Source: Chloroflexi bacterium GWB2_54_36 (GTDB lineage: Bacteria; Chloroflexota; Anaerolineae; Anaerolineales; Anaerolineaceae). From it: a stretch of DNA of 64,000 nucleotides. The translations under genes were made by a program, and so were the position numbers. The notes beneath the pieces are model-generated. The model searched no databases. It was given only the letters and a program-made list of their open reading frames with translations, and was not told the DNA's origin. Location of the stretch: contig MGMG01000094.1 of NCBI GenBank assembly GCA_001796355.1, positions 1 through 64,000 on the forward strand, written 5' to 3'. Below are positions 11,363 to 31,210 of the stretch, piece by piece (positions within the stretch are counted from its first letter, which is position 1; the number at the start of each line of letters is the position of its first letter).

Positions 11363-12418
11363 TCAGGCGCCAGGGGGCGGCCGTTTGACCAGGTCCCGCA
11401 ACGCGCTTTCAAGAACCCCCACGGCTTTTTGATATTCCGCCAGAACGATCGATTCGTTCGGGGTATGGTCTAAAGCTGAATCGCCTGGCCCGTATACCAG
11501 GGCAGGGCACTGCCAGGCCGGTGCGACGATATTCAAATCAGCCGTTCCAGTCTTATAGACAAACGAAGGGGTTCCGCCTGGAGCCCGTATCCCGCTCAAG
11601 AAAGACCGTACCAGCAAAGTGTTCTTCTCACACACCCAGGCAGGAATGGCATATCCTATTGGGGCAACCTCAGCGCCATCAGCCAGATCATTCAGCTTGA
11701 TATACCAATCTTCCGGAGATACATCTATTGGCAGGCGTGCGCCCAGAGTCAAGCGCGCCCACTGCTCGTAACCATCCTGTCCGGATTTCAATCCGCGTAA
11801 TGTGGGTAGAATCTTATCGAAAACGCGGGATTTGACCGCATTAAATTGCTCTGCAAAAGCCTGAACCGCCAGCCATATTTTCACCGCGGCTTCGCTGGCC
11901 GTCTGCTCAGCGCTGGCGCTATGCGACTGCTTTTGCCGAACCGTCACCGTTGCCAGGGCAGTCCCTTTATACCCCAGAGCAACCCGATCCCACCGGTTTG
12001 GCTCACCGATAATCGCGAAATCCGGCCGGTACTGGTCCACGACAAACCGCGCGCCTTCTGAATTTCGTTCCTCCTCGACCGCGCCGATCACAACGAACTG
12101 CCAGCCGTCCGTTTCACCCAGGCGCGCCACCGCATCCACAAAACACGCCAGCGGGCCCTTGGCATCCACTGCGCCGCGCCCGTACAATACGCCATCCCGC
12201 ACCCGCACGGATATTTTCCCGGGGACGGTATCGATATGCCCTAACAGCACCACTTGCCGCAGTCCGCTGCCCACCACTCCGACTGCATTTCCAGCCGCGT
12301 CGGTAAATGCCTGTTGGTAACCGAGGTCTTTCATCCGCGCAACCAGCCATTCCACCGCTGCCCGCTCCTGTCCGGATGGGCTGTACTGGGAAACCAGTCC
12401 AATCAAAGTATCCATCAT
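11363..12418 (-). CDS. lysK: [LysW]-lysine/[LysW]-ornithine hydrolase
   Basis: An M20-family metallopeptidase that releases lysine or ornithine from the LysW carrier, the last carrier-bound step of both pathways. Metal-site motifs are present in order: GHIDTVPG, the bridging Asp in GRGAVDAKG, the catalytic EE in [14 protein letters not shown], and the late His in ALDHTPNE. The start is one of two adjacent ATGs (12418, 12415) just past GGCAGGGA; a TTG seven codons earlier is in frame. About 350 residues, normal for LysK. It is the last gene of the arginine operon and should serve the lysine pathway too, since no second copy is here. Confidence 0.9.
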
Positions 12419-12459
12419 CCATCCCTGCCGGGAAAGCAATTTAACATAAGATTCAACGA

Positions 12460-13647
12460 TTAATCTGCGGTGGATTGCTGTGCAGCCAAGTTTTCGTTAA
12501 GGAGCACTTCCGTCAGGCTGGCTGCGACCTGGTCCAACTGCTCGTAGGTGATTACCAGTGGGGGCAGCAGCCGGATGACCGTCAGGCCGGCGTTCAAGGC
12601 AATGATGTGTTTTTCCTGCAAAGCTTTGAGGTATGGCGTAACCTTTTGTTTCATCTCGATGCCGATCATCAATCCCAGGCCGCGCACCTCGCGAATATTC
12701 GAACAGGGAATCGCCTTCAATTTTTGCATCAAATAGGCCCCCTTTTCCTCCGCCTGGGCGGCAAGATCCTCTTCCTCGATGACGCTCAACGCCGCCAGTG
12801 CAGCCGCGCAGGCAAGCGGGTTTCCGCCAAAGGTCGAACCATGAGTGCCAGGTACGAGGTTTTTTACCTGTTCGCCAATCAGCACTGCGCCCATGGGCAC
12901 TCCGCCAGCCAGCGACTTGGCGCAGCATAGCAAATCCGGGGTGATGCCGTAACGCTGGTAGGCGAACAATCTGCCTGTGCGCCCAAACCCGCTTTGAACT
13001 TCATCCATGATAAGCAATGCCCCGCGGCTCGAACAAATGCGCCGGGCTGCTTCCAGGTATGCAGGATCAGCCGGATAAACCCCTCCTTCACCTTGTACCG
13101 GTTCAAGGATAACCGCCGCGGTGGCATCCGATACCGCCTTATCCAGCGCTTCGATATTGTTGTAACTCACGTGTTGAAAATCCGGGACCAGGGGCAAAAA
13201 GGGTTCGCGGTACTTCTTGTTCCAGGTGGCAGAAAGTGAACCCAGCGTGCGCCCGTGAAAACCGCGCATGGCCGCCACGATCCCGCTCCGGCCGGTGGAT
13301 AAACGCGCAAATTTTATCGCCGCTTCCACAGATTCCGTGCCGGAGTTGCAGAAAAAGACCCGTTCCAGACCAGGAGTCAGACTGGTTAATTTTTCCATCA
13401 GTGCCGCGCGTTGATCATTGGGAAAGGTTTCAAATAGCGTGATCAACTTACCGGCCTGTTCAGCGATTGCGGCAGCCACTTTAGGGTGAGCATGCCCCAG
13501 ATTGGCCACGCCGTGCCCGGAAGAACAGTCAATGTATTCGTTTCCCTCCTCATCCCAGAGGGTCGCCCCCTGCCCGCGCACAAAGGCGATGGGTTGTTTG
13601 GCATACACCCCGGATGTGTATTTGGCTTCCATTTCAATGATATTCAT
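12460..13647 (-). CDS. lysJ: [LysW]-aminoadipate/glutamate semialdehyde aminotransferase
   Basis: A class III PLP aminotransferase (395 residues) of the ArgD/LysJ type that aminates the carrier-bound semialdehyde to LysW-lysine or LysW-ornithine. Visible motifs are the N-terminal WDEEGNEYIDCSSGHGVANLGH, FFCNSGTESVEAAIKFAR, IMDEVQSGFGRTG, and the PLP lysine in CCAKSLAGGVPMGA. The start at 13647 follows GGGAG; an in-frame TTG four codons upstream is less likely. It is placed as LysJ and not ArgD because lysW, lysX, lysY, lysZ and lysK surround it. Confidence 0.92.
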   Translation of the reverse strand: MNIIEMEAKYTSGVYAKQPIAFVRGQGATLWDEEGNEYIDCSSGHGVANLGHAHPKVAAAIAEQAGKLITLFETFPNDQRAALMEKLTSLTPGLERVFFCNSGTESVEAAIKFARLSTGRSGIVAAMRGFHGRTLGSLSATWNKKYREPFLPLVPDFQHVSYNNIEALDKAVSDATAAVILEPVQGEGGVYPADPAYLEAARRICSSRGALLIMDEVQSGFGRTGRLFAYQRYGITPDLLCCAKSLAGGVPMGAVLIGEQVKNLVPGTHGSTFGGNPLACAAALAALSVIEEEDLAAQAEEKGAYLMQKLKAIPCSNIREVRGLGLMIGIEMKQKVTPYLKALQEKHIIALNAGLTVIRLLPPLVITYEQLDQVAASLTEVLLNENLAAQQSTAD

Positions 13648-13724
13648 CGCATCTCCCAATAAAGCATGCCCCGCCGCTCCAACTAAAAGAAATGATTCAG
13701 CAGCCTGGCCATCACCTGATAAAT

Positions 13725-14561
13725 TTATTGAATCAACGTGCCGGATCCGCCCAGAGCGCGGGTAACCGGTTGTTGCACTCGCCCATCGGCGATAATGACC
13801 CGACCGACCCCGCCCTGTAACGCCTCACCAGCGCCCAAAACCTTCTTTTTCATGCGTCCCTGCGCCATATCTAAAGCGGCCGGTAGTTGAAGTGGGGAAA
13901 CATGTTTTATCACGGTCGACTCGTCGGGAAATTTCTCCATCAGGCCGGTAACAGCCGTGAGCAGTATCAGGGTATCCGCTTTCAGCGCTGAAGCAATCAT
14001 GGCCGCAGCTCGGTCAGCGTCCACGTTGAGCGCTTCACCCTTTGGACTGACTGCCACCGGGGCAATGACCGGCAAATAGCCTGCTCCGAGCAGCATCTCC
14101 AGCAATCCGGCGTTGACCTGCTCGATCTTGCCCGTATAATCATCGCGAATAAGTCGGCGTTTTCCGGCTTCCACGCTCTGAATCACCTCTTTGCGCGCCG
14201 CTACCATTAATCGTCCATCCATACCGCTCAAACCAAAAGCGCAGACGCCCAGACCGTGCAGTTGCTCGGTCAAAAGCGAATTGACTTTGCCGTTGACGGC
14301 CATCAGAAACACTTCCAGGGTGGAACGGTCGGTATAGCGGGAGGTGTACCCGGAAGGCGAGGTGATAAACCTCGGGGGAGTACCCAACGCTTCTCCCAGG
14401 GAGGTGGCTTCCGCAGAGCCGCCATGCACCAGGACCAGCCGGTAACCCTGCGACAGCAGTTCCACTGCATCCGCGCAGATTGCTGAAAAATCTACCCCCT
14501 CCGTACCTCCCAATTTGATCACCAGTGTTTTCGCCAAATTTGTGCTCTCCAATCGATCCAT
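13725..14561 (-). CDS. lysZ: [LysW]-aminoadipate/[LysW]-glutamate kinase
   Basis: An amino acid kinase-family protein (278 residues) that phosphorylates the side-chain carboxylate of carrier-bound aminoadipate or glutamate. It begins with the kinase motif VIKLGGTEG, followed by LVLVHGGS and the stretch SGYTSRYTD, typical of LysZ as opposed to acetylglutamate kinases. NVDADRAAAMIA and a C-terminal MKKKVLGAGEAL also fit. It lies 18 nt after lysY. Confidence 0.92.
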   Translation of the reverse strand: MDRLESTNLAKTLVIKLGGTEGVDFSAICADAVELLSQGYRLVLVHGGSAEATSLGEALGTPPRFITSPSGYTSRYTDRSTLEVFLMAVNGKVNSLLTEQLHGLGVCAFGLSGMDGRLMVAARKEVIQSVEAGKRRLIRDDYTGKIEQVNAGLLEMLLGAGYLPVIAPVAVSPKGEALNVDADRAAAMIASALKADTLILLTAVTGLMEKFPDESTVIKHVSPLQLPAALDMAQGRMKKKVLGAGEALQGGVGRVIIADGRVQQPVTRALGGSGTLIQ

Positions 14562-14579
14562 TCTGATTCATCTGCGCCG

Positions 14580-15614
14580 TTAAGCCGGGTGCAGGCCGGG
14601 GAAGTCCAGGCCGGTCATCTCGTCCCAGCCCTTCATCAGGTTCAAGCATTGCACTGCGGTTCCTGCAGCGCCCTTCATTAGATTGTCGATGGCGCAGATC
14701 GAAACAACATGTCCATTTGATTCATCCAGCTCGAAACCGATATCCGCGTAATTGGATCCGGCTACGATTTTGGGTTCGGGAACCCGGTAAATCCCGCGTT
14801 GTTCTTTCACCACCCGGATGAAAGGGTTTTCATTCGCGGCTGCCCGGTAGGCCTTCCACAAATCCTTGTTCGCGGTTCCCGGCTTGACTTTGGCATGCAC
14901 CGTCGCCAGTGCGCCGCGCACCAGATCGACGGCCGTCATGGTCAACGACACATCCTGAATACCGGTTTCCTGAATGACTTCCGCGGTATGACGGTGCCCA
15001 AAAGCGGAAAATGTGCGGATGACGTTGGCGCGTTCTGCATGCAGCGATCCGGCATTGCCCTCTGCCCCCGATTCGGAGGAGCCGACCTTGATCTCGCTGA
15101 TGACCGGTGCAGAAAGGTCGATTAACCCGGCCTGGACAAGCGGGAGCAGCGCCAGGTTGCTGGCTGTGGCGTTACAGCCCACGCCAGAAATATAGCGTCC
15201 CTCCATTATCTCCGAGCGGTGCAGTTCTGGCAGTCCATATATAAATTTTCCCAGCCATGCAGGCGCCGCATGTGAGACGCCGTACCATTTTTCATACAAT
15301 GCAGCATCCTTCAGCCGGAAATCTGCCGAAAGGTCGATGATCTGCGAAGCCAGGGCAGCATACTCGTCGATCTTTTTTTGCGCCTGTCCATGAGGCAGCG
15401 CCAGAAAGAGCACATCTACCGGTTCCAATTGGGCCGGGTCGGTAAACTTAAGCTGCGTGCGCTTGCGCAAGTTGGGATGCACCTGATAGACATACTCACC
15501 CAGATGCGAACGGGAGGTTACCTGCTTCACCTCCACCTGGGAGTGACCGAGCAGCAAACGCAGCAATTCTCCACCGCCGTAACCCGAACCGCCCACAATT
15601 GAAACGCTAATCAT
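14580..15614 (-). CDS. lysY: [LysW]-aminoadipyl/glutamyl phosphate reductase
   Basis: An NADPH-dependent acyl phosphate reductase of the ArgC type (344 residues from 15614). N-terminal Rossmann motif GGSGYGGGELLRLLL; the catalytic Cys is in SGVGCNATA; the Asp in LSADFRL and the C-terminal region with RGIYRVPEPK and NLMKGAAGTAVQ are typical of the family. The ATG at 15614 gives the usual start four residues before the Rossmann strand; a GTG at 15626 is in frame and possible. Confidence 0.92.
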   Translation of the reverse strand: MISVSIVGGSGYGGGELLRLLLGHSQVEVKQVTSRSHLGEYVYQVHPNLRKRTQLKFTDPAQLEPVDVLFLALPHGQAQKKIDEYAALASQIIDLSADFRLKDAALYEKWYGVSHAAPAWLGKFIYGLPELHRSEIMEGRYISGVGCNATASNLALLPLVQAGLIDLSAPVISEIKVGSSESGAEGNAGSLHAERANVIRTFSAFGHRHTAEVIQETGIQDVSLTMTAVDLVRGALATVHAKVKPGTANKDLWKAYRAAANENPFIRVVKEQRGIYRVPEPKIVAGSNYADIGFELDESNGHVVSICAIDNLMKGAAGTAVQCLNLMKGWDEMTGLDFPGLHPA

Positions 15615-15653
15615 TTTTACGCTCACTTTCCGTAGGATTCAGACTCATGGTCT

Positions 15654-16517
15654 TTATTTTTTTGCCACTTCCAGAACGTAATTCACGATCTCATCCGCAA
15701 TGTTCACGCCGCTAATGGGCTGTGCGGTGTGAAATTCCATGGTGTGATTCACCTCGTTGACCAGCAGCCCTTTTTCAGGATGCTCTACCAGATCGACAGC
15801 CAGCACGCCGCTGCCCACTGCCTGAGCCGCCCGCAAGCACAACGATTCGATCTCCGGTGTAATGGGGCAAATCTCACCCTCACCGCCGCGGGCAGTGTTG
15901 GTGATCCAGTGGTCCGACTTGCGGTAAATGGCCGTCAGCACCCGGTCCCCCACCATAATGGCGCGAATATCCCGCCCGGGTTTTTTAATGTATTCCTGAA
16001 TGTAAAAAACCGAATGCTGCACCGAGCCAAGCATGGCTTTATGTTCCAGCAACGCCTCGGCAGCATCGCGGTCGTTTATTTTTGCCAGCAGCCGGCCCCA
16101 CGATCCGACCACAGGTTTCAAAACCACCGGGTAGCCAAAGGCCTCGATTGCCTCCAGCGCTGCCTCGGGGGTGAAAGCAGTCGCGCTGTGGGGTTGGGGT
16201 ACACCGGCTCGGGCCAGGGCGGCACTGGTCATTAATTTGTCGCCGCAGATTTCTGCAACTTTAGCAGTGTTCACGGTCGTGATTCCGAAGGCATTCAACA
16301 TCCGCAGTGCATATAACCCGCTGTTGTAACTGATGCTGCGTTCCAGGACGGCGTCGAAAGCGCACCATGCAGCTGGGTTTTGCAGATCGAAGGAAATCCC
16401 GCGGTCATCCAGTCGATCGTAATCCAGGCCACGCTTTTCTAAAGCACCGAAAATCCATTTCTCTTCGACGCGCACCCGCGAGTAGATCACCCCAATTCGT
16501 AATCTTTTTGGCATCAT
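15654..16517 (-). CDS. argX: LysX-family ATP-grasp ligase, probably glutamate-LysW ligase (ArgX)
   Basis: An ATP-grasp enzyme (287 residues) that joins an amino acid to the C-terminal Glu of LysW, the first carrier step. Family motifs present: [43 protein letters not shown] and [10 protein letters not shown]. The start is one of two adjacent ATGs (16517, 16514) after AGGAG. After MEF this copy reads [11 protein letters not shown], whereas the paralogue at 19739-20587 reads [11 protein letters not shown]. This copy lies with argG/argH, so I assign glutamate as its substrate; this rests on position and is not proven. Confidence 0.85.
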
Positions 16518-16574
16518 CGTTTTCAACTCCTACCCGGTCATTTTACGAACAGTAAAAGGCTGCTACTCAGCTTG

Positions 16575-16745
16575 CTATTCACCCCAATCTTCCTGTTCCA
16601 TAGGCGCAAGGTTTACCTCGGCCGGATCTAGCCCGGTCACCTCAAGATCTACACCGCAGTCGGAACACACGATGATTTCACCAACCTCGGTACTGGCGTC
16701 CAGTGTAATTTCAGCTTCACATTCTGGGCAAGAAACGGTATTCAT
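16575..16745 (-). CDS. lysW: LysW amino-group carrier protein
   Basis: A 56-residue acidic carrier, short enough to be missed by gene finders. Two CxxC zinc knuckles (CPEC at residues 6-9 and CSDC at 27-30) form the zinc ribbon, and the protein ends in EDWGE, the canonical LysW tail whose terminal Glu receives the substrate amino group. Its start codon overlaps the argH stop by four bases (ATGA, 16742-16745), so translation is probably coupled. It protects the amino group through LysZ, LysY and LysJ in both lysine and arginine synthesis. I see only one copy in the window, so both pathways should share it. Confidence 0.96.
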   Translation of the reverse strand: MNTVSCPECEAEITLDASTEVGEIIVCSDCGVDLEVTGLDPAEVNLAPMEQEDWGE

Positions 16746-18118
16746 GATTGATCTCCTTGGATAATTGATTTAGCTTTTTGAATTTGTTGAAAAACTGCTG
16801 TTGGGGATGTCCCACCTACAGCAGATCGTCGGGCGATTGAAACCATTGGGTCGAAGGCCTGAGCCAAATCCGCCTCGAACGGACCCGCGCTTTTCCATTC
16901 TGCAAGGGAAAGTTGTTCCAGGCTGACTCCTTTTTCGGCCGCCAGATGGACGGCTTTCCCCACTGCCGCGTGAGCGTCGCGGAACGAAACCCCTTTGCGA
17001 ACCAGATCATCTGCCAGGTCCGTCGCCAGCATGGTGGAGTCAATGGCTGCCCGCATGCGCTCCGATCGGACGGTCATAGTCTCCAATGCCTGGCCCAGAA
17101 TGGGCAGCACCGCCAGCAGGTTGTCGGTGGCTTGAAAGACCGGAACCTTGTCCTCTTGCAAGTCTTTGTCATAGGTGGAGGGCAGCCCTTTGAGCGCTGC
17201 CATTAGCCCGGTCAACATGCCAATGAGCGTCCCGGCCTTGCCGCGCGCCAGTTCAAACAAGTCCGGATTTTTCTTCTGCGGCATCAGGCTGGAGCCGGTG
17301 GAGTAGGCGTCGTCAAGCTCAAAGAAGCCAAACTCGGCGGTGGTAAACAACACGACGGCTTCGGAAAGCCTGCTCAGGTGCAGCCCCATCATTGCTGCGC
17401 AAAACAGGTATTCGGCGGCAAAATCGCGATCGGAAACAGCATCCAGGCTATTGGGAGCGGGCAGGTCAAAACCCAGAGCTTCGGCCAGGGCAACCCGGTC
17501 GATCTCGAAAGCCGTCCCGGCTAACGCGCCGCAGCCCAGCGGTAAGACCGCCACCCGGTCACGCAGGTCGGTCAGGCGGTCCCGATCGCGTTGCAGCGGC
17601 CAGAAATGACTCATGAACCAGTGCGCGAGAGTGATTGGCTGCGCGCGTTGCAGGTGAGTGTAACCCGGCATCAACACGCTCTGGTTGCGTTCTGCCACGG
17701 TCACCAATACCTTTTGCAAACCCTTGATGGCTTGATCCAAAAGCGGGAGGGTTTCCAGCATCCACAGGCGGAAGTCCGTAGCGACCTGGTCGTTGCGGCT
17801 GCGTCCGGTGTGCAGCTTTCCAGCAACCGGGCCAGCCAGTTCGCCCAAACGCCGCTCGACCGCCGTGTGAATATCCTCGTCAGATTGGGCAAAAAGGAAG
17901 GCGCCGCTGCTGAACTCATCAGCAATGGCATTCAGCCCGCTGGTGATGACCGCATTTTCGTCCGGTGAGAGCACTTTCGCCTTCAGGAGCGCCCCTGCCC
18001 AGGCAACGCTGCCGCGCACATCCTGCAGCGCCAGGCGCTGATCGAATGGCAGGGATGTATTGAAGTCCCAGGCCTGTTCATTGAATTTGCTTGAAAAACG
18101 TCCGCCCCAGAGGGTCAT
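16742..18118 (-). CDS. argH: argininosuccinate lyase
   Basis: Splits argininosuccinate into arginine and fumarate. About 458 residues in the aspartase/fumarase fold, with the family signature GSSLMPQKKNPD and the conserved stretches LWGGRF, GRSRNDQVATDFRLW and GYTHLQRAQPI. Starts at one of two adjacent ATGs (18121, 18118) preceded by AAAGGAG; a GTG at 18148 that overlaps argG is less likely. The gene lies between argG and lysW and overlaps lysW by four bases. Confidence 0.96.
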   Translation of the reverse strand: MTLWGGRFSSKFNEQAWDFNTSLPFDQRLALQDVRGSVAWAGALLKAKVLSPDENAVITSGLNAIADEFSSGAFLFAQSDEDIHTAVERRLGELAGPVAGKLHTGRSRNDQVATDFRLWMLETLPLLDQAIKGLQKVLVTVAERNQSVLMPGYTHLQRAQPITLAHWFMSHFWPLQRDRDRLTDLRDRVAVLPLGCGALAGTAFEIDRVALAEALGFDLPAPNSLDAVSDRDFAAEYLFCAAMMGLHLSRLSEAVVLFTTAEFGFFELDDAYSTGSSLMPQKKNPDLFELARGKAGTLIGMLTGLMAALKGLPSTYDKDLQEDKVPVFQATDNLLAVLPILGQALETMTVRSERMRAAIDSTMLATDLADDLVRKGVSFRDAHAAVGKAVHLAAEKGVSLEQLSLAEWKSAGPFEADLAQAFDPMVSIARRSAVGGTSPTAVFQQIQKAKSIIQGDQS

Positions 18119-18140
18119 CATCGCTCCTTTGAACCTGGCA

Positions 18141-19412
18141 TCAGTCACGCTTGAACTTGGAATAGTCTGGTTTGGGCATATCCAGTCCTGCTACGGGCAA
18201 GCCGTTGAGCGCCTGGACTTTCATACTCAGCCCAAACAGGCGGATGAAACCCTCCGCGTGGCTCTGATCGTAGACATCTTCCTGTCCGAAGGTGGCGAAA
18301 TCTTCGCGGTACAGGCTAAAGGGACTCTTGCGGCCGGCGCTGATGATATTGCCTTTATAGAGCTTCAACCGGACTGTGCCAGTGACAGGGCCCTGGGTGC
18401 TGTTCACAAAAGCATCCAATGCCTCGCGCAGCGGGGTAAACCACAACCCGTTGTAAGTCAGTTCGGCATATTTGTTGGCGACCCCTTGTTTGAAGTGCAG
18501 GGTTTCCCGGTCCAGCACCATCGACTCTAGATCCTGGTGGGCGTAGAGCAAGATGGTTCCACCGGGGGTCTCATATACACCGTGCGACTTCATTCCAACC
18601 AGGCGGTTTTCCACCAGATCTGCACGGCCAATTCCGTGCGCGCCACCGATGGCATTCAAGGTCTCGATCACCTTCGCAGGGGACAACTTTTCGCCATTAA
18701 CCGCTACCGGATCCCCGCTCTCGAACTCAATTTCCACATACACGGGTTCATCCGGCGCATTCTCAGGCGAGGTGCTGAGCTGGAACATGCTCTCTTCAGG
18801 TTCGTTCCATGGATCCTCGAGCAAGCCGCCTTCATGCGAAAGATGCCAGAGGTTCGAATCGCGGCTGTAGATGGCTTTTACGGTGGCCGTCACCGGCACA
18901 TTGTGTTTGGCGGCATAGTCTATGGCATCCTCGCGTGAGGAGATTTCCCATTCTCGCCAGGGGGCAATGATCTTCAGACGGGGATCTAAAGCCATCACGG
19001 TCAGTTCAAACCGGACCTGATCGTTGCCCTTGCCGGTCGCTCCGTGCGCCACGGCATCCGCACCCACCTCATGAGCCACATCCACCATGTGTTTGGCAAT
19101 CAGAGGCCGCGCCACTGAAGTACCGAGCAGGTACTTATGCTCATATACAGCGCCGGCTTTCAGCATGGGAAAAATATAGTCACTGGCAAGCTCATCGCAC
19201 AGGTCATGCACAATCAATTGGCTGGCGCCGCTGTTGAGCGCTTTTTGCTCCAATCCGCCTAAATTCTCATCGCTCTGACCTACATTGGCGCAGAAACACA
19301 CAACTTCGCAACCATAATTTTCCTTGAGCCAGGGGACGATTACCGATGTGTCGAGCCCGCCCGAGTAGGCCAGGACGACTTTTTTGACTTGCTGTTTTTT
19401 AGGTGCCTTCAT
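18141..19412 (-). CDS. argG: argininosuccinate synthase
   Basis: Condenses citrulline and aspartate with ATP. 423 residues, slightly longer than usual because of a lysine-rich N-terminus. The ATP pyrophosphatase loop AYSGGLDTS, the [13 protein letters not shown] stretch and the [14 protein letters not shown] region are all present. Start at 19412 with GGAGG 8 nt upstream. It is the first gene of an eight-gene operon and lies directly behind a leader with promoter, leader peptide and terminator (19441-19634), so the operon is probably controlled by arginine supply. Confidence 0.97.
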
Positions 19413-19440: not shown

Positions 19441-19474
19441 AAAAAAAACAGCCCTCCTGTGAAGGAGGGCTGTT
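19441..19474 (-). terminator. rho-independent terminator within the argG leader (attenuator)
   Basis: A perfect 12-bp stem: on the minus strand AACAGCCCTCCT, loop TCAC, AGGAGGGCTGTT, then eight T (stem 19447-19474, T run at 19441-19448). It lies between the arg promoter and argG, pointing toward argG, so it can only act as a conditional terminator. The opposite strand has no T run after the stem. Confidence 0.9.
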
Positions 19475-19509
19475 ATGCTGACTTTTACTGGTATTTCAGT
19501 ACGTTCTAT

Positions 19510-19567
19510 CCGTCGTCAATAACAAGATATCCCAACCTTCAGAGGGGAAGTGGGTAACGGACGACGG
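19510..19567 (-). promoter_or_regulatory. alternative RNA stems of the arginine attenuator
   Basis: In transcript order: CCGTCGTC (19567-19560, inside the Arg codons), CCCACTTC (19554-19547), GAAGGTTGGG (19540-19531) and GACGACGG (19517-19510). The first pairs perfectly with the fourth, and the second pairs with the third inside it. GAAGGTTGGG can instead pair with CCCTCCTTC (19469-19461), which includes most of the terminator's 5' arm: eight base pairs around a small bulge. That pairing is a plausible antiterminator. This is read by eye; energies were not computed. Confidence 0.7.
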
Positions 19568-19596
19568 GTACGAGGGAACGACTTCGTGGTGAACAT
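19516..19596 (-). CDS. arginine leader peptide, 26 residues (candidate)
   Basis: A 26-codon ORF between the arg promoter and the terminator. Codons 9, 11 and 12 are all Arg (CGT), giving P-R-T-R-R-P. The Arg codons lie just before the CCCACTTC arm, so a ribosome stalled there would cover that arm and free GAAGGTTGGG to form the antiterminator. A ribosome that reaches the stop at 19516-19518 would cover GAAGGTTGGG and let the terminator form. The ATG lies only about 13 nt past the -10 box, so the message may be almost leaderless. No homologue was looked up. Confidence 0.7.
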   Translation of the reverse strand: MFTTKSFPRTRRPLPTSPLKVGISCY

Positions 19597-19606
19597 ATTG
19601 GGGCGA

Positions 19607-19634
19607 ATTTTACCACCTATATGAGATTAGTCAA
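19607..19634 (-). promoter_or_regulatory. promoter of the arginine operon
   Basis: On the minus strand, TTGACT (19634-19629), a 16-nt spacer and TAAAAT (19612-19607). Transcription would start near 19599, giving a leader of about 190 nt before argG that contains the leader peptide and the terminator. Confidence 0.75.
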
Positions 19635-19738: not shown

Positions 19739-20587
19739 TCAAGCCTGGCTTTTTGCCTGGGCGATCACATATTCAACCATTAAGGCTGGAATATTGACCC
19801 CGGTAGTGGTGATGCTGTTACGGAATTCCATGGTGTGGTTCACCTCGTTGACCGTCAGACCGTTCTCGGTTTCGAAAACGTCAATCGCCAGCAGACCGCC
19901 GCCCATGGCTCGCGCGGTGCGGCGGCAAATTTCACTGAGTTCAGGCGTAAGCGGGCAGTTCGAGGCAATCCCACCGCGCGCGGTGTTGGTGATCCAGTTT
20001 TCGGAAGTGCGGTAAATGGCCGCAATGGGTTCCTCACCCACCACGAACGCGCGGATATCCCGGCCAGGTTTGTTGACGTATTCCTGAACGTAAAAAACCT
20101 GGTGGTTCACGCCAAGAGCGGCTTTGTGTTCGATGAACCCCTCAGCGGATTGGCGGTCGTCGACCTTGGCCAGCAGGCGCCCCCAGGAGCCGATGACCGG
20201 TTTGAGTACACAGGGATAACCGAGCGTTTCCACGGCCTGGAGCGCGGAGTCTTCATCAAAAGCCATCAAGACCCGTGGGGTGGGGATATTCTCCCGGACG
20301 AGAATCTGGCTGGTGACATACTTGTCGCCGCAGCGCTCGGCCACCTGAGCGGAATTAACCACCATGACGCCATTGGCTTCGTATATTTTCGAAATATACA
20401 GCCCGCGCGAATAGGAAACGGAACGCTCAAAGAGCACATCCACCGGCTCATCCAAATGGGAAATATCAAAAAAACAGTTGCCGTCGTTGATCCGGACGAG
20501 ATGGACATCCTGGTGTTTTTCCAATTCATCCAGCAGGTATTTTTCTTCGACGCGCAGTCGGGTATATAAGAAACCAACATGGATCAT
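19739..20587 (-). CDS. lysX: LysX-family ATP-grasp ligase, probably 2-aminoadipate-LysW ligase
   Basis: A second LysX paralogue (282 residues) that attaches an amino acid to LysW. Shared motifs: [43 protein letters not shown] and [10 protein letters not shown]. After MEF it reads [12 protein letters not shown], which I recall as closer to Thermus-type LysX than the copy in the arginine operon is. It overlaps the homoisocitrate dehydrogenase stop by four bases (ATGA), and as the last gene of the lysine operon it should act on 2-aminoadipate. Substrate assignment is inference. Confidence 0.87.
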
Positions 20588-21639
20588 TCTTTACCTCCAA
20601 ACCCATTCATTCTGTGCGCCAGACCCGCATCCAGTTGGGTATGCAATTGCCGGATAACGATTTGCGTAAAATCCCGGGTGGATAAGCTGCCGCCCAAATC
20701 CGGTGTGGTCTGCCCGGAGGCGATGCAGGCATCAACAGCGCTGCGCAGTTGGGCGGCATGGGCGGGCTCGCCGATATGGTCGAGAAGCATGGCGGCTGCC
20801 ATGAAAGTGGCAGTCGGATTGGCGATCCCTTTGCCTGCCAGGGCTGGCGCGCTGCCATGAACCGGCTCGAACACAGACGCCTGCAAGCCGATATTCCCTG
20901 AAGCCGCCACACCCAACCCGCCAACGAACATGCAGGCTTCATCCGAGAGGATGTCGCCGAACAAGTTAGTCGTCACAATCACTTCGAACTGTTCCGGCGC
21001 GCGAACCAGTTCCATAGCGCAGGCATCCACCAGCAGTTCTTGCATGAGGATGGTCGGATATTCTTCGGCTACTTCAAGCGCTACCTGACGGAAAAGACCG
21101 CAGGTCTGGCGCAGGACATTGGCTTTATGAACGACATGCACCTTTTTTCGTCCTTGCAGTACGGCAAGCTCGAAAGCCTTACGAAGGATGCGTTCCGAGC
21201 CGCGCCGGGTGATGACCCGCTCCGTGATCGCCCGATTGCCATCCTCCTCGACCCGCTCGATGCCAGCGTACAGCCCTTCGGTGTTTTCGCGGACAAACAC
21301 CATGTCGATGCCTGGCCTGGAGGACGGGTGGCGGATGGAATGAATCGGTCGGAGATTGGCGTAAAGTTCAAGCTCCTGGCGCATGCGCACCACCGGCGAA
21401 AAATAACCGGGGATGTTGGGAGGAGTGGTCACAGCGCCAAGCAGAGCGGCATCCGATGCGCAAATGGCCTCCAGTGTGGTAGGCGGCAGCGGGGTGCCAT
21501 GCCGCTGGTAAGCCGAGAAGCCGATCTCAGCCCGGGTAAATTCCAGGTCGATCGGCAAGGCTTTCAATACCTGTTCGGCGCGCTCGACCATCTCAGGCCC
21601 GATGCCGTCGCCAATGAGCAAACAAATCTGGTAACCCAT
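20584..21639 (-). CDS. homoisocitrate dehydrogenase
   Basis: A beta-decarboxylating dehydrogenase (351 residues) of the isopropylmalate/isocitrate family, oxidising homoisocitrate to 2-oxoadipate. Seen: N-terminal [11 protein letters not shown]; the substrate-loop stretch [30 protein letters not shown]; the Lys in [10 protein letters not shown]; the metal Asp pair in [11 protein letters not shown]; and [18 protein letters not shown]. Isopropylmalate dehydrogenase (leuB) is the alternative, but the neighbours are a RAM-domain homocitrate synthase, a homoaconitase pair and lysX. Confidence 0.87.
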
Positions 21640-21648
21640 TCTTCTCCT

Positions 21649-22146
21649 TTATGCCATCAACTCTTGAACATCATGGTTTTTGAGGAAATTGACGATGCCC
21701 CCGGCTTCCGCGATCTTTATGACGAAGGCTGGCAGCGGGCGGGCCTGATAGACATGTCCATTGGTCAGGTTGTGAATTTTTCCGGTGACAAGATCGACCT
21801 CGATCTCGTCGCCTTCAGTGATATCCGCTGCAGCCGCCGAACATTCCAGGATTGGCAGGCCGATATTGATGGCGTTCCGGAAGAAAATGCGGGCGTAGGA
21901 CGCGGCGATGACGCATTTGGCCTGCGAGCCTTTGATTGCCACCGGGGCATGCTCGCGCGAAGAACCACAGCCAAAGTTTTGTCCGCCTACGACCACGTCG
22001 CCCGGCTTGACCCTGGCGGCATAGTCGGGTTTCACCTCGCAGAAAACGTTTTTGGCAAGTTCGAGCGGGTCGATCGTGATATTGAACCGGCCGGGGATGA
22101 TTTCATCGGTATTCATGTTTTCGCCAAAAGTCCAGGCTTTTCCCAT
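21649..22146 (-). CDS. lysU: homoaconitase small subunit
   Basis: A 165-residue LeuD-like swivelling domain, the small subunit of the hydro-lyase that isomerises homocitrate to homoisocitrate. Contains [25 protein letters not shown] (substrate-binding loop) and [17 protein letters not shown]. It lies 27 nt after lysT. Isopropylmalate isomerase small subunits look alike; the assignment depends on context. Confidence 0.87.
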
Positions 22147-22173: not shown

Positions 22174-23424
22174 TCAGGCCAGGTAAGGCCGGGGATCGGT
22201 GATTTTGCCGGTCAGAGCAGCAGCCGCAGCGGAAGCCGGGCTGGCAAGATAAATTTCTGACAGCGGGCTGCCCATGCGGCCGATAAAGTTGCGGTTCATG
22301 GTGGTCAGAGCGCGTTCGCCGGGAGCCAGCACGCCGCCGTGCCGGCCGATGCAGGCGCCGCAGCCGGTGCCGGTTACGGTGCAGCCGGCATCCATCAGGA
22401 TTTCGATCAGGCCATTTTGCATGGCTTTTTTATAAATTTTCGTCGAGGCAGGCGTGACGATCACGCGGGTGTGCGGATGCACGGTTTTACCCTGGAGGAT
22501 GCCGGCCACTATTTCAAGGTCTTCATAACGCGCGTTCGTGCAGGTGCCGATATAGACCTCATCGATCGCCAGACCTTCGACTTCTCGCAGAGCTTTGGCG
22601 TTGTCCACATCCGGGTGGCAGGCCACCTGCGGCTCGATGGTCGAAACGTCGATGGCAATGATTTTTTCATACTGCGGGTTTACCGGGTGGATCGGTTCAT
22701 AACTTCCCTGCGCGCGTGTCTCAGCCGCCAGGTAAGCCAGGGTGGTCGCATCCGCTGCGATCAGCCCGCATTTGGCGCCAATCTCAGTGGACATGTTCGA
22801 AAGGACGATGCGCTCGTGCACCGGCAGACGGTCGATATAATCGCCGCCAAACTCGATGGAACGGTAGGTCCCGCCGTCCATGCCAAGTTTACCGGCAATG
22901 AAGATCATCACATCCTTGGCAAAGACACCCGGCTGGGTCGTGCCGCTCAACTCAATCCGGATGGTTGGGGGAACGCTGAACCAGCACTTGCCGGTTACCC
23001 AAGCCACGCCGATTTCGGTCGAGCCGAACCCGGCGCCAAATGCGCCCAATGCGCCGTAGGTGTTGGAATGCGAATCCGCTCCAATCACAATTGCGCCGGG
23101 GATAATAAAACCCTCTTCGATCATCACCTGGTGGCAAACGCCCTGGTGATAGAACTGGCTGATACCCTGTTCTTTCATAAAATCCAGTCCCTTTTTTTGG
23201 GCTTCGGCAGCCAGCAGGTTTGGCGCCGGGTAGGCATGATCAAAATGGATAACGATTTTATTTTTATCGAATATCGGCTTCCCGATTTCCCGAAAGGCTT
23301 TGATCGCCAGCGGGGTAGTGTTGTCGTGGCTCATGATGGTATCAACATCCACAAGCACGATTTCGCCGGCTTGCACCTCGCGCCCGACTTTGCGGGATAA
23401 AATCTCTTCAACCAATGTTCCCAT
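22174..23424 (-). CDS. lysT: homoaconitase large subunit
   Basis: The [4Fe-4S] large subunit (416 residues). Start at 23424 behind GGAGGCAATA, within the last 17 bases of the lysS frame. The cluster cysteines are in IGTCTNARYEDL and GTGCGACIGRHGG, and the GADSHSNTYGALGAFGAGFGS stretch is typical of the aconitase family. Function with LysU: homocitrate to homoisocitrate. LeuC is the alternative by fold only. Confidence 0.9.
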   Translation of the reverse strand: MGTLVEEILSRKVGREVQAGEIVLVDVDTIMSHDNTTPLAIKAFREIGKPIFDKNKIVIHFDHAYPAPNLLAAEAQKKGLDFMKEQGISQFYHQGVCHQVMIEEGFIIPGAIVIGADSHSNTYGALGAFGAGFGSTEIGVAWVTGKCWFSVPPTIRIELSGTTQPGVFAKDVMIFIAGKLGMDGGTYRSIEFGGDYIDRLPVHERIVLSNMSTEIGAKCGLIAADATTLAYLAAETRAQGSYEPIHPVNPQYEKIIAIDVSTIEPQVACHPDVDNAKALREVEGLAIDEVYIGTCTNARYEDLEIVAGILQGKTVHPHTRVIVTPASTKIYKKAMQNGLIEILMDAGCTVTGTGCGACIGRHGGVLAPGERALTTMNRNFIGRMGSPLSEIYLASPASAAAAALTGKITDPRPYLA

Positions 23425-24814
23425 TATTGCCTCCATTGCCATTTGCAAAATATTTTTTAAGAATCACGCGCGTCTCGGTGCGTTTCACGCCTGCTACTGT
23501 GCGCAATTGATCGATCAGATTGTTCAGCGCCATCACGTTATCGACATTGACGATAGCGCTGATGTCATAATCGCCGGTGACCTCGTAAACGTTGTTGACC
23601 TGGTGGAAGCCGCGCAACCGGCGCACTACAGAGGGGATATACACGTGTGATTCGGTCTCCACCATTACCAGTGCATGGATGTCGTGAGGGATGACATCGA
23701 TTACGCGGCCGGTTACCTGTTCGGCGATATCGATTATGTCGGTATCAAAAAGCTGTTTGCTGTTTTCGTCGAGGTTCTTGATGCGAGAGACGATCACTTC
23801 CAGTTCTGCCGGGCTGACCTCGATTCCATATTCATCCAGCCTGGCAGCCACCGCGCTTTTGCCGGTGTATTTGTCGATGACGATTTTTCGTTCGCGTCCC
23901 AAAAGGGCGGGATCGAAAGGTTCATAAGTACGCGAGTCTTTCAAAACCCCGTCGGTATGAACCCCGCTTTTGTGGGTGAAGGCATTCTGCCCGGTGATGG
24001 GTTTGTTGGGCGCCAGAAAAAACCCTGAAACTTTTTCGATGTAATTGGAGACGGGCATCAAGGGCAGGATGTTATACTGCTCGACCCTTTCCAGGTTGTT
24101 TAATGCCAGAATGGTTTCAGCCAGATCGGGGATGCCGGCGCGTTCACCCATGCCGTTGACAGTAGTATGAATGCAGTCGGCCCCGGCGCGGATACCCGCC
24201 ATGGCATTAGCCAGCGCCAGCCCGTAGTCATTATGGCAATGCAAATCAATTTTGCAGGGCAGGAGGTTTTCCCGTAGCGCGCGAACCTGTTCGTACATGG
24301 CATGCGGCTGCATGATGCCCAATGTGTCGGCAAAGCTGATCCGGTCAGCTCCAGCCTGAATGGCGACATTGCAAACCCTGACAAGGAAGTCAAAATCAGT
24401 GCGGGTGGCATCCTCAGGCGTATAGCGAACCTTGAGCCCCAGGCTGCGGGCGTAGGTAATCTGCTCGCGAATAATCTGGATGGCTTCATCTGGCGTCTTA
24501 TGAAGCTTGGCGTCCAGGTGGATTTTCGACGTGGCGTAGAAAATCGCCACCCGGTTGGCGCCGCAGGCTTTGGCTTTGTCGATCCCTTTTTTTGTTGCCA
24601 TGGAATGCGCCACGATTTCAGCTTTTAATCCCAGCCCGGCGATCTTTTCAACTGCAGTAGCAATACCGGGTGATACGCACGGGTCGCCGGCCTCGATCAT
24701 CTCCACGCCAACCTGGTCCAGCAGGCGAGCAATTTCCAACTTTTCCTTTAAGGTGAAACTGACGTACGGAGTTTGTTCGCCTTCGCGCAGGGTGCTGTCC
24801 AAAATTTCAACCAT
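23408..24814 (-). CDS. lysS: homocitrate synthase with C-terminal RAM domain
   Basis: The first committed enzyme of lysine synthesis through 2-aminoadipate: acetyl-CoA plus 2-oxoglutarate to homocitrate. 468 residues. The DRE-TIM barrel begins with [12 protein letters not shown] and has the metal ligands in DLHCHNDYGLALANAMAG. After the barrel and linker, roughly residues 375-455 (VIPHDIHALVMVETESHVYIPS to VKRTETRVILKKYF) form an Lrp/AsnC-type RAM domain, as in archaeal homocitrate synthases where it senses lysine. Start 24814 behind CGAGGAC. It is the first gene of the lysine operon, behind its own promoter, leader ORF and terminator. Confidence 0.93.
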   Translation of the reverse strand: MVEILDSTLREGEQTPYVSFTLKEKLEIARLLDQVGVEMIEAGDPCVSPGIATAVEKIAGLGLKAEIVAHSMATKKGIDKAKACGANRVAIFYATSKIHLDAKLHKTPDEAIQIIREQITYARSLGLKVRYTPEDATRTDFDFLVRVCNVAIQAGADRISFADTLGIMQPHAMYEQVRALRENLLPCKIDLHCHNDYGLALANAMAGIRAGADCIHTTVNGMGERAGIPDLAETILALNNLERVEQYNILPLMPVSNYIEKVSGFFLAPNKPITGQNAFTHKSGVHTDGVLKDSRTYEPFDPALLGRERKIVIDKYTGKSAVAARLDEYGIEVSPAELEVIVSRIKNLDENSKQLFDTDIIDIAEQVTGRVIDVIPHDIHALVMVETESHVYIPSVVRRLRGFHQVNNVYEVTGDYDISAIVNVDNVMALNNLIDQLRTVAGVKRTETRVILKKYFANGNGGNNGNIG

Positions 24815-24839
24815 AATTGTCCTCGAACAGATTTAAAGT

Positions 24840-24871
24840 AAAACGCGCTCTCCGGTATCGGAGAGCGCGTT
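24840..24871 (-). terminator. terminator within the lysS leader
   Basis: A perfect 13-bp stem on the minus strand: AACGCGCTCTCCG, loop ATAC, CGGAGAGCGCGTT (24842-24871), followed by TTACTTT. It lies 27 nt before the lysS start and downstream of the promoter at 25036-25064, so it is conditional. The same stem is intact in the duplicate at 30882-30911. Confidence 0.8.
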
Positions 24872-24908
24872 GGGTTACAGGGTTTGACCGGGCGGAATCC
24901 GCCAGTGT

Positions 24909-25025
24909 TTAGCTTGACCTGTTTAACCAATAACTGCCCACGTATCCGATCGCCGAAGATCCAGATGTGGGCTGGCGCTTAGCCTTGGCCTCAAAAGCAA
25001 CAGGGATGTTCACGGGGCTTTCCAT
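24909..25025 (-). CDS. candidate leader ORF of the lysine operon, 38 residues
   Basis: An ATG-started ORF of 38 codons with AGGA 4 nt upstream, beginning about 11 nt past the -10 box and ending 38 nt before the terminator stem. It has two Lys codons close together (codons 14 and 16, AAG GCT AAG CGC). A stem GCCCAC/GTGGGC (24970-24965 with 24941-24936 in + coordinates) lies just after them. In the duplicate the frame is intact, and of three changes two are synonymous. I found no convincing antiterminator, so the mechanism is open. Confidence 0.4.
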   Translation of the reverse strand: MESPVNIPVAFEAKAKRQPTSGSSAIGYVGSYWLNRSS

Positions 25026-25035
25026 AATGTCCTGG

Positions 25036-25064
25036 TTTATACACAGTTATGCAGGATATGTCAA
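25036..25064 (-). promoter_or_regulatory. promoter of the lysine operon
   Basis: On the minus strand, TTGACA (25064-25059), a 17-nt spacer and TATAAA (25041-25036): a near-consensus housekeeping promoter. In the duplicate both boxes are unchanged while much of the spacer has diverged, as expected if the boxes matter. Confidence 0.85.
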
Positions 25065-25069
25065 GCCTT

Positions 25070-25788
25070 TTAAGAAAAGTTGTAGAGAATTTATGAAGAG
25101 AAGCTCCCATCCCGAACAGGGCGTTGAGCACTGTGTAATCCTGTCTGCGAGTTACGTCTGCGTGCTGATTGGGTAAAAAGGCAAACCAGCTCCGTAATAA
25201 GCCTAGTTTCAAAGAAGGCAAAATTTTTCATCCCAGTCAGATCTCCGTATGCTTCTCGCAAGACAACCTGGGTTAATATCAACTCCATGTGGAATTCGAC
25301 AAGCACCTGTATTCCGTTCCCGATATCCTGATCCACCAGGAAGTTGATATTCATGGCACAAAACATATGATGGAGGTCTTTTACAAAGGTAAATAGGGCG
25401 CTATCCATCCCCGCAGCTTAAAGCCTGGGCGCGTTTCGACTTTGCATGAGTATATGTCATCCAATCACCAATTTGTGGATCAGGTCAATGCTATACAACT
25501 CCTACAAGGGCCGAAGCGGTAGGTTCGCAGACTACTAATTTTATTAACGCAACGCTCAAATCACACCCATTCCCAGAACAAGCCTATTGCTCTTGTCTGG
25601 GGGTCCTTAGCCTGGCAAAAATATACCCATATTCCCGGAATAATTCATTGCCAGCCCGTTGCCAACCTGTCCATGCTTGCCCAAGCCTGCAGTCCAGGTG
25701 ACCTCGGCTCAAATCTTGCTCCCCGAATGGATGACATAATGTCAATTAATTGCTAACAATCGTTACTATTTCGGGTGATTAAAATCCT
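25070..25788. other. intergenic region, possible gene remnant
   Basis: About 720 bp between the lysine promoter and the first transporter promoter. A 105-codon open frame on the minus strand (25091-25408) has some protein-like sequence (LVDQDIGNGIQVLVEFHMEL) but no recognised family or ribosome site. It may be a decayed gene fragment. Nothing else is supported. Confidence 0.35.
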
Positions 25789-30665: not shown

Positions 30666-30854
30666 TCAGAAAACCCTCACCTTGTCTAACACTGCAGTAG
30701 CAATACCGGGTGATACGCACGGGTCCCCGGCCTCGATCATCTCCACGCCAACCTGGTCCAGCAGGCGAGCAATTTCCAGCTTTTCCTTTAAAGTGAAACT
30801 GACGTAAGGGGTCTGTTCGCCTTCGCGCAGGGTGCTGTCCAAAATTTCAACCAT
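30666..30854 (-). pseudogene. truncated homocitrate synthase fragment
   Basis: The first 55 codons are identical in protein sequence to lysS at 24814, then the frame runs into unrelated sequence and stops after 62 codons. It keeps only the start of the barrel ([12 protein letters not shown]), so it cannot be active. It has six nucleotide differences from lysS over 164 bp and none changes the protein. Confidence 0.92.
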
Positions 30855-31109
30855 AATTGTCCTCGAGCAGATTTAAAGTAAAACGCGCTCTCCGGTATCG
30901 GAGAGCGCGTTGGGTTACAGGATTTGACCGGGCGGAATCCGCCAGTGTTTAGCTTGACCTGTTTAACCAATAACTGCCCACATATCCGATCACCGAAGAT
31001 CCAGATGTGGGCTGGCGCTTAGCCTTGGCCTCAAAAGCAACAGGGATGTTCACAGGGCTTTCCATAATGTGCTGGTTTATACACAGGAATAGGAGATATG
31101 TCAAGCTTT
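30691..31109. repeat. right copy of the ~420-bp direct duplication, with orphan promoter, leader and terminator
   Basis: Matches 24651-25069 in the same orientation. It keeps TTGACA-17-TATAAA (31104-31076 on the minus strand), the 38-codon leader ORF (one Ala to Val change), the 13-bp terminator stem and the lysS start. In this copy the leader stem is longer (GCCCACAT/ATGTGGGC). Transcription from here would read toward the livF-like gene on the opposite strand. Confidence 0.92.
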
Positions 31110-31210
31110 TTATGGAAATTTCTTGAAACTATTCCTAAATTCGAGGATTAGCTGTCCAAACGACCGCTCTCTTTGTTCTCCCTGCGATGATTGTTGCCGG
31201 GAAGCCCGCA

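Follow-up and report, generated by a model that had tools for sequence, protein, structure and literature searches.

The lysine (alpha-aminoadipate) operon lysS-lysT-lysU-hicdh-lysX, on the minus strand of the window (the whole stretch of 64,000 nucleotides analysed here), is preceded by a promoter, a short open reading frame (ORF) and a series of hairpins. How might such a leader control the genes that follow it? The initial annotation of this DNA had described a near-consensus promoter, a 38-codon ORF with Lys-Ala-Lys-Arg at codons 14-17, and a GCCCAC/GTGGGC stem with a 13-bp terminator before lysS, all of which were borne out (TTGACA-17-TATAAA in the case of the promoter; Table 1), and had regarded leader-peptide attenuation of the kind reported for Thermus as possible. 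That suggestion is supported by the conserved ORF, its second Lys codon (K2), the terminator and an antiterminator, and the region is very probably a ribosome-mediated transcription attenuator that senses charged Lys-tRNA.

Table 1. Positions of the leader elements, the operon genes and related features in the window.
Feature	Position	Strand	Evidence
-35 box TTGACA, leader promoter	25059-25064	-	sequence
-10 box TATAAA, 17-nt spacer	25036-25041	-	sequence
38-codon leader ORF MESPVNIPVAFEAKAKRQPTSGSSAIGYVGSYWLNRSS (ATG 25025, stop 24909)	24909-25025	-	sequence and relatives
Control region K1-Ala-K2-Arg, AAG GCT AAG CGC, codons 14-17	24975-24986	-	sequence and relatives
K2 (codon 16), invariant in relatives	24980-24978	-	
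Hairpin 1:2 (anti-antiterminator); outer arms GCCCAC 24972-24967, GTGGGC 24941-24936	24936-24972	-	column counts
Antiterminator strand 2 (GGCGATCGGA...GGGC)	24936-24954	-	swap test, fold model, column counts
Bridging hairpin P: GGTTAAACAGG 24928-24918 with CCTGTAACC 24881-24873	24873-24928	-	swap test
Antiterminator strand 3, within terminator 5' arm and loop	24852-24866	-	swap test, fold model, column counts
Intrinsic terminator, 13-bp stem 24871-24842 and T-rich tail	24835-24871	-	terminator scan, column counts
lysS, homocitrate synthase-like, first gene of the lysine operon	23408-24814	-	TIGR02146 404 bits, just under the 413.55 cut-off
lysT, homoaconitase large subunit family	22174-23448	-	
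lysU, homoaconitase small subunit family	21649-22146	-	
Homoisocitrate/isopropylmalate dehydrogenase family	20584-21639	-	
lysX	19739-20587	-	TIGR02144
Arginine leader between lysX and argG: TTGACT/TAAAAT, ORF ATG 19596 MFTTKSFPRTRRPLPTSPLKVGISCY, R-T-R-R, terminator 19474-19447	19441-19634	-	
argG, argH, lysW, second lysX/argX, argC/lysY, lysZ, lysJ, lysK	11363-19412	-	
Second leader copy with 55 lysS codons, ending in 7 unrelated codons before a stop codon	30690-31112	-	

A gap of 326 nt separates lysX from argG. The two lysX-like genes, which are 74% identical in part of their DNA (15733-16118 versus 19824-20203), are probably a LysX/ArgX pair. The leader itself is duplicated, which the initial annotation had not mentioned: positions 24651-25072, comprising the leader and 55 lysS codons, recur at 30691-31112 in the same orientation with 95.7% identity, and the leader of the second copy would drive at most a 62-codon lysS fragment. 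The repeats flank a 5.6-kb liv segment (branched-chain amino-acid ABC transporter). The relative G003 has a single leader copy, no liv segment at the same site, and elsewhere only distant liv relatives. The segment was either gained in the lineage of the window or lost in G003; single-crossover integration of a circle carrying liv genes and the 5' end of lysS would fit the duplication, as would a recombination event that removed the segment from G003. At positions 70-612 there are also several direct repeats, imperfect and 40-225 nt long.

Conservation of the leader ORF and its promoter

The initial annotation had proposed a comparison of lysS leaders across relatives, and this revealed both a conserved Lys codon and covarying stems. 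The comparison covered 29 lysS orthologues from Anaerolineae, taken to be homocitrate synthases of lysine operons with an identity of 67% or more. They comprised that of the window, 22 from named records (including L038, the locus of G003), five from further genomes and that of G009. Eight loci that were distant or from other bacteria, and two repeats of L042 and L058, were excluded. The leader was present at 26 of the 29 loci, L039 being cut by a contig end, and no leader was seen at L044 (with only 139 nt of upstream DNA), L051 and G009. A covariance model built from the hairpin part of the leader found it in the same eight genomes among 396 of the class and 400 of the phylum, seven times before lysS and once, in G231, before lysX; a close lysS was not found for G231 in the class-level set. 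The G231 leader (MKSPLSYEIKSKRTPTT...) has antiterminator strands that pair at -25.2 kcal/mol, and its predicted fold switches from 0 to 14 antiterminator pairs. The model missed the variant leader of G307.

Adding the second copy in the window, and leaving aside L039, which lacks the 5' part, gave 26 promoter-bearing entries. The -35 box was TTGACA or TTGACG in all of them, and the distance from the -10 box to the ATG was always 8 or 10 nt (10 nt in the window). A sigma-70 scan of the window did not list this promoter because it accepts a -10 box only if the sixth base is T, which excludes TATAAA. Between the -10 box and the ATG, L042, L046, L057, L072 and others share the block TAGAATaccGCCCAAt. 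The first T of the -10 box lies 14 or 16 nt upstream of the ATG, and a published criterion for leaderless genes is a -10-like signal about 12 bp upstream of the start codon (PMC3160421). A start codon so close to the -10 box suggests an mRNA that is leaderless or nearly so, with a 5' untranslated region of 0-4 nt.

The ATG, frame and stop of the leader ORF, which lies just after the promoter and is presumably translated, were kept in 26/26 promoter-bearing leaders. Far from changing freely, K2 was Lys in all 27 leaders with a readable ORF (26 entries and the G231 leader), and its third base varied synonymously between AAG and AAA. K1 was replaced by Arg in L042 and by Asn in L050 and L058. Arg followed K2 in 21 of the 27 leaders and His in two (L043, L049); the remaining four, L053-L056, have the Lys codons of K-Q-L-K-K. 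L049 is the leader of a cultured species, Pelolinea submarina. A third Lys is present in many relatives (K-S-K-R-K), and most leaders have two or three Lys within five codons, a single one of them invariant. Enrichment of Lys across the whole peptide was not significant (p = 0.09 for L103 and 0.24 for L113); the case for lysine rests on the position of the codon.

Conservation of K-x-K-R-x-P extends beyond Lys, as might be expected if this nascent peptide itself stalled the ribosome with lysine as the effector. However, the Pro codon sits in the CCC of a hairpin arm, which explains its conservation at the level of RNA, and the motif is altered to K-Q-L-K-K-[LS]-S-P in L053-L056 and to K-R-A-K-R-N-L-P in L074. 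In the sister leaders described below, moreover, the peptide differs from pathway to pathway but the layout is the same, and we consider arrest by the peptide very unlikely.

Hairpins and the predicted switch

The stem of the terminator is followed by TTTTACTTT, the first TT of which closes the stem, and the lysS ATG at 24814 is 20 nt downstream of the tail. The terminator was listed by a program scan of the window and was found in 27/27 entries, so that its absence from relatives, which the initial annotation had named as evidence against attenuation, was not encountered; its limits were set by hand for L042 (where the scan had chosen hairpin 1:2), L043 and L052. The leader RNA of the window was more stable than shuffled sequences (z = -2.83, 0/200), but the real test of the leader is conservation and not the fold of a single sequence.

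The same annotation had found no clear antiterminator. This did not hold: positions 24954-24936 pair with 24866-24852, as seen both in a swap test and in column covariation. In the swap test, strand 2 was taken as the 28 nt ending in the 3' arm of hairpin 1:2, and strand 3 as the 5' arm and loop of the terminator. Over 25 leaders (copy 2 and G003 excluded; at eight loci the ends of the strands were placed manually), strands from the same leader paired at -16.8 kcal/mol compared to -13.8 kcal/mol after swapping, a difference reached in 0/20,000 permutations, although such counts overstate independence since the leaders are related by descent. Fifteen hand-chosen representatives gave -17.41 and -14.43 kcal/mol, respectively (2/20,000). 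Columns were counted on a MAFFT alignment of 19 rows (A2), from which copy 2, G003, L039, L053-L056 and L074 were excluded. The outer stem of hairpin 1:2 was paired in 96.2% of cells, with changes on both sides in two pairs, and its inner pairs in only 85.9%. The terminator was paired in 91.4%, with both-side changes in 7 of 13 pairs, and the antiterminator in 88.8%, with both-side changes in four pairs. Partners slid out of register paired far less for all three elements, and the antiterminator exceeded every slid control in cells paired. MAFFT places gaps in the 3' strand of helix P, and we therefore assessed this helix by the swap test and not by column counting (38/20,000 with 25 leaders; 178/20,000 with 17). 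Hairpin P would shorten the span that the antiterminator has to bridge.

Conserved stems and a terminator ahead of a lysine gene could also belong to a lysine-binding riboswitch or another ligand-binding RNA, with the ORF incidental. However, no Rfam 15 family reached its gathering score in the window, where the search returned nothing beyond a weak sub-threshold match to P36 sRNA on the opposite strand. A lysine riboswitch and a T-box leader were each rejected, as their Rfam covariance models were unmatched in the window. An incidental ORF would also fit poorly with an ATG at a fixed distance from the -10 box, a K2 that is in frame in every leader and changes synonymously, and the existence of Arg, His, Thr and Phe/Tyr leaders of similar layout with matching codons. 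We regard a ligand-binding RNA as extremely improbable.

Attenuation by a translating ribosome requires that the position of the ribosome decide between the two folds. The RNA was folded as far as the terminator loop, and all bases up to and including K2 plus 13 nt were barred from pairing. Under this mask 25 of 26 leaders formed 8-15 antiterminator pairs; with no masking, 24 of 26 showed none. The exceptions were L043, with 4 pairs in either state, and L073, with 12 in either state. By the swap test, fold model and column counts, the antiterminator and the terminator are predicted to be mutually exclusive, L043 being a weak case. When the stalled ribosome was moved codon by codon, K2 fell inside the switching window in 25/26 leaders (all except L043), and a stall at the control codons is thus predicted to free the antiterminator strand in these 25; for L060, L073 and L074 the window is so wide that the position is not diagnostic. 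K1 lay outside it in most leaders, which fits its looser conservation. The worry that only two Lys codons are present is answered by position: in the fold model, it is a stall at the invariant Lys that frees the antiterminator strand.

Taken together, these results suggest the following sequence of events. RNA polymerase would start at the leader ATG or a few bases before it, and a ribosome would translate the 38-codon leader. With ample charged Lys-tRNA, the ribosome would pass the Lys codons, and strand 2 would be sequestered, either within hairpin 1:2 or beneath the ribosome itself; the terminator could then form before lysS and transcription would stop. When Lys-tRNA is short, the ribosome would stall with codon 16, the invariant Lys, in its A site and cover GCCCAC, leaving strand 2 (GGYGATCGGA...GGGC) free to pair with the 5' arm of the terminator across the bridging hairpin P. 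This antiterminator would block the terminator, and the operon would be transcribed.

An arginine leader and related leaders in Anaerolineales

The arginine genes of the window have a leader of their own (Table 1), and when the DNA upstream of argG was compared across 26 loci (25 retrieved ones plus that of the window), 21 proved to carry an R-x-R-[RH] leader. L138 and L141 had none, L137 and L140 were doubtful, and L135 was cut by a contig end. The swap test supported the argG antiterminator (18/20,000 with 18 leaders; L120, L142 and L143, as near-copies, and the doubtful ones were excluded).

This bears on the possibility that the lysine leader is a dual sensor, reading both Lys and Arg through K-x-K-R, as the lysine operon runs into the arginine/LysW set here and in G003 and may share enzymes with it. 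The lys and arg genes do adjoin in the window, Arg follows K2 in most leaders, and the Arg codon is within the switch window. On the other hand, Arg is less conserved than Lys, being replaced in L043, L049 and L053-L056, and it is kept in relatives where argG is on another contig or divergent, and so does not track the merging of the operons; from the positions of argG in the relatives, no correlation was seen between an Arg codon after K2 and an argG in the same operon. With the arg genes carrying their own Arg leader as well, dual sensing appears unlikely, and we retain a sensor of charged Lys-tRNA as the preferred reading.

We then searched four chosen genomes for the near-leaderless promoter pattern, and obtained 20 places compared to none in a reversed control; the two in the window's own genome were both not leaders. 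At ten of the 20, a short ORF with a terminator stood ahead of one of the following genes: hisD (H-L-H-F-S-H), chorismate mutase (FFFSYYFYY), aspartokinase (Thr-rich), metG (Met-rich), carA, argG and lysW (Arg; codons of the lysW leader read by eye), lysS and lysX (Lys), and pyrC, whose short ORF lacked matching amino-acid codons. A narrower pattern applied to 301 genomes of the order gave 67 places in 47 genomes and none in the control. We read 64 of these, the other three being leaders already collected. A short ORF opened 62 of the 64, and a terminator-like hairpin was present in 60 of the 62 (not in L154 and L174; weak in L198). The first genes were argG (14), aspartokinase (14), chorismate mutase (13), lysS (4), carA (4), hisD (3), another homocitrate synthase (2), a permease (2), and hisG, ilvD, lysX/argX, valS, cysM and thrS (1 each), with long ORFs in the remaining two.

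Leaders of this layout, with codons to match, recur ahead of genes for Thr, Phe/Tyr, His, Arg, Ile/Leu/Val and Lys. With target amino acids that we assigned to each gene ourselves, the codons of 56 leaders matched the downstream pathway better than in any of 20,000 label permutations, and the count was again 0 for 25 dissimilar peptides. Antiterminator swap tests on the survey leaders supported argG (23/20,000, 14 leaders), were not significant for aspartokinase (2,348/20,000, 14 leaders whose strands pair well and hardly vary), and gave no signal for the chorismate-mutase class (10,105/20,000, 11 leaders with crude strand limits).

Near-leaderless ORFs with matching codons were seen before aroH/DAHP synthase, aspartokinase, his, ilvD, carA and metG (L150-L213, L101-L117). 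L151 and L152 carry a second type of homocitrate synthase, above the TIGR02146 cut-off, with its own leader (...ELKKGKKIQ...; KKGKK). Short near-leaderless ORFs with a terminator also precede permeases of the xanthine/uracil type and pyrC (L178, L175, L117); they have no amino-acid codon bias and are perhaps nucleotide-sensing attenuators.

We tentatively propose, while giving the idea somewhat less than even chances, that one class of near-leaderless leader-peptide attenuators governs much of the synthesis of amino acids in Anaerolineales: Lys, Arg, His, Thr, Phe/Tyr, Ile/Leu/Val and perhaps Met. These would share the promoter block TTGACA-N16/17-TAgAATaccGCCCA-N1-4-ATG and have spread as copies whose control codons then changed; the window would hold one such pair in its Lys (K-x-K-R) and Arg (R-x-R-R) leaders.

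Comparison with known attenuators

The lysine leader, with its strong comparative support, led to a survey in which the pathway could be predicted from the leader codons. For a phylum most of whose members are uncultured, this offers a route, from sequence alone, to annotating small ORFs and the specificity of operons. The Lys and Arg leaders provide a natural comparison of control codons within one layout. Leader peptides here seem as a rule to be initiated on near-leaderless mRNAs, and an attenuator of this kind requires that translation stay close to transcription.

Leader-peptide attenuation was reportedly described by Tsubouchi and others in 2005 for the lysine cluster of Thermus thermophilus, likewise with a leader peptide and a terminator before alpha-aminoadipate lysine genes. 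The authors of a survey published in 2010 stated that they knew of such systems, at that time, in Proteobacteria and Actinobacteria only, and extended the list to Firmicutes (PMC2965389). A survey of RNAs in 50 genomes lists eight uORF candidates (PMC11109978), where a uORF, a terminator and an antiterminator likewise stand ahead of a gene for amino-acid synthesis (ilvB); its main text contains none of the terms chloroflex, anaerolin and lysine. In the literature searched, including the accessible parts of PMC4833913, PMC9413887, PMC2965389, PMC11857589, PMC7298713 and PMC11109978, we found no account of leader-peptide attenuation in Chloroflexota. The leader described here is very probably a classical attenuator responding to lysine, from a phylum for which we found no described case; the window also carries its arginine counterpart, and there is evidence that both belong to a wider class.

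Its three-hairpin logic is also that of the ilvBNC attenuator of Corynebacterium glutamicum (PMC11857589) and of trpL of Sinorhizobium meliloti, both from another phylum and serving another amino acid. According to PMC7298713, trpL encodes a leaderless leader peptide with the mRNA 5' end at the ATG, and so resembles the predicted start of the lysine leader as well. The classical trp and his attenuators, as outlined in PMC7298713 and PMC9413887, likewise have a leader ORF, control codons, an anti-antiterminator, an antiterminator and a terminator. Unlike these, the Chloroflexota leader is predicted to be near-leaderless, has one invariant and one or two optional Lys in place of a long run of control codons, and includes an extra bridging hairpin.
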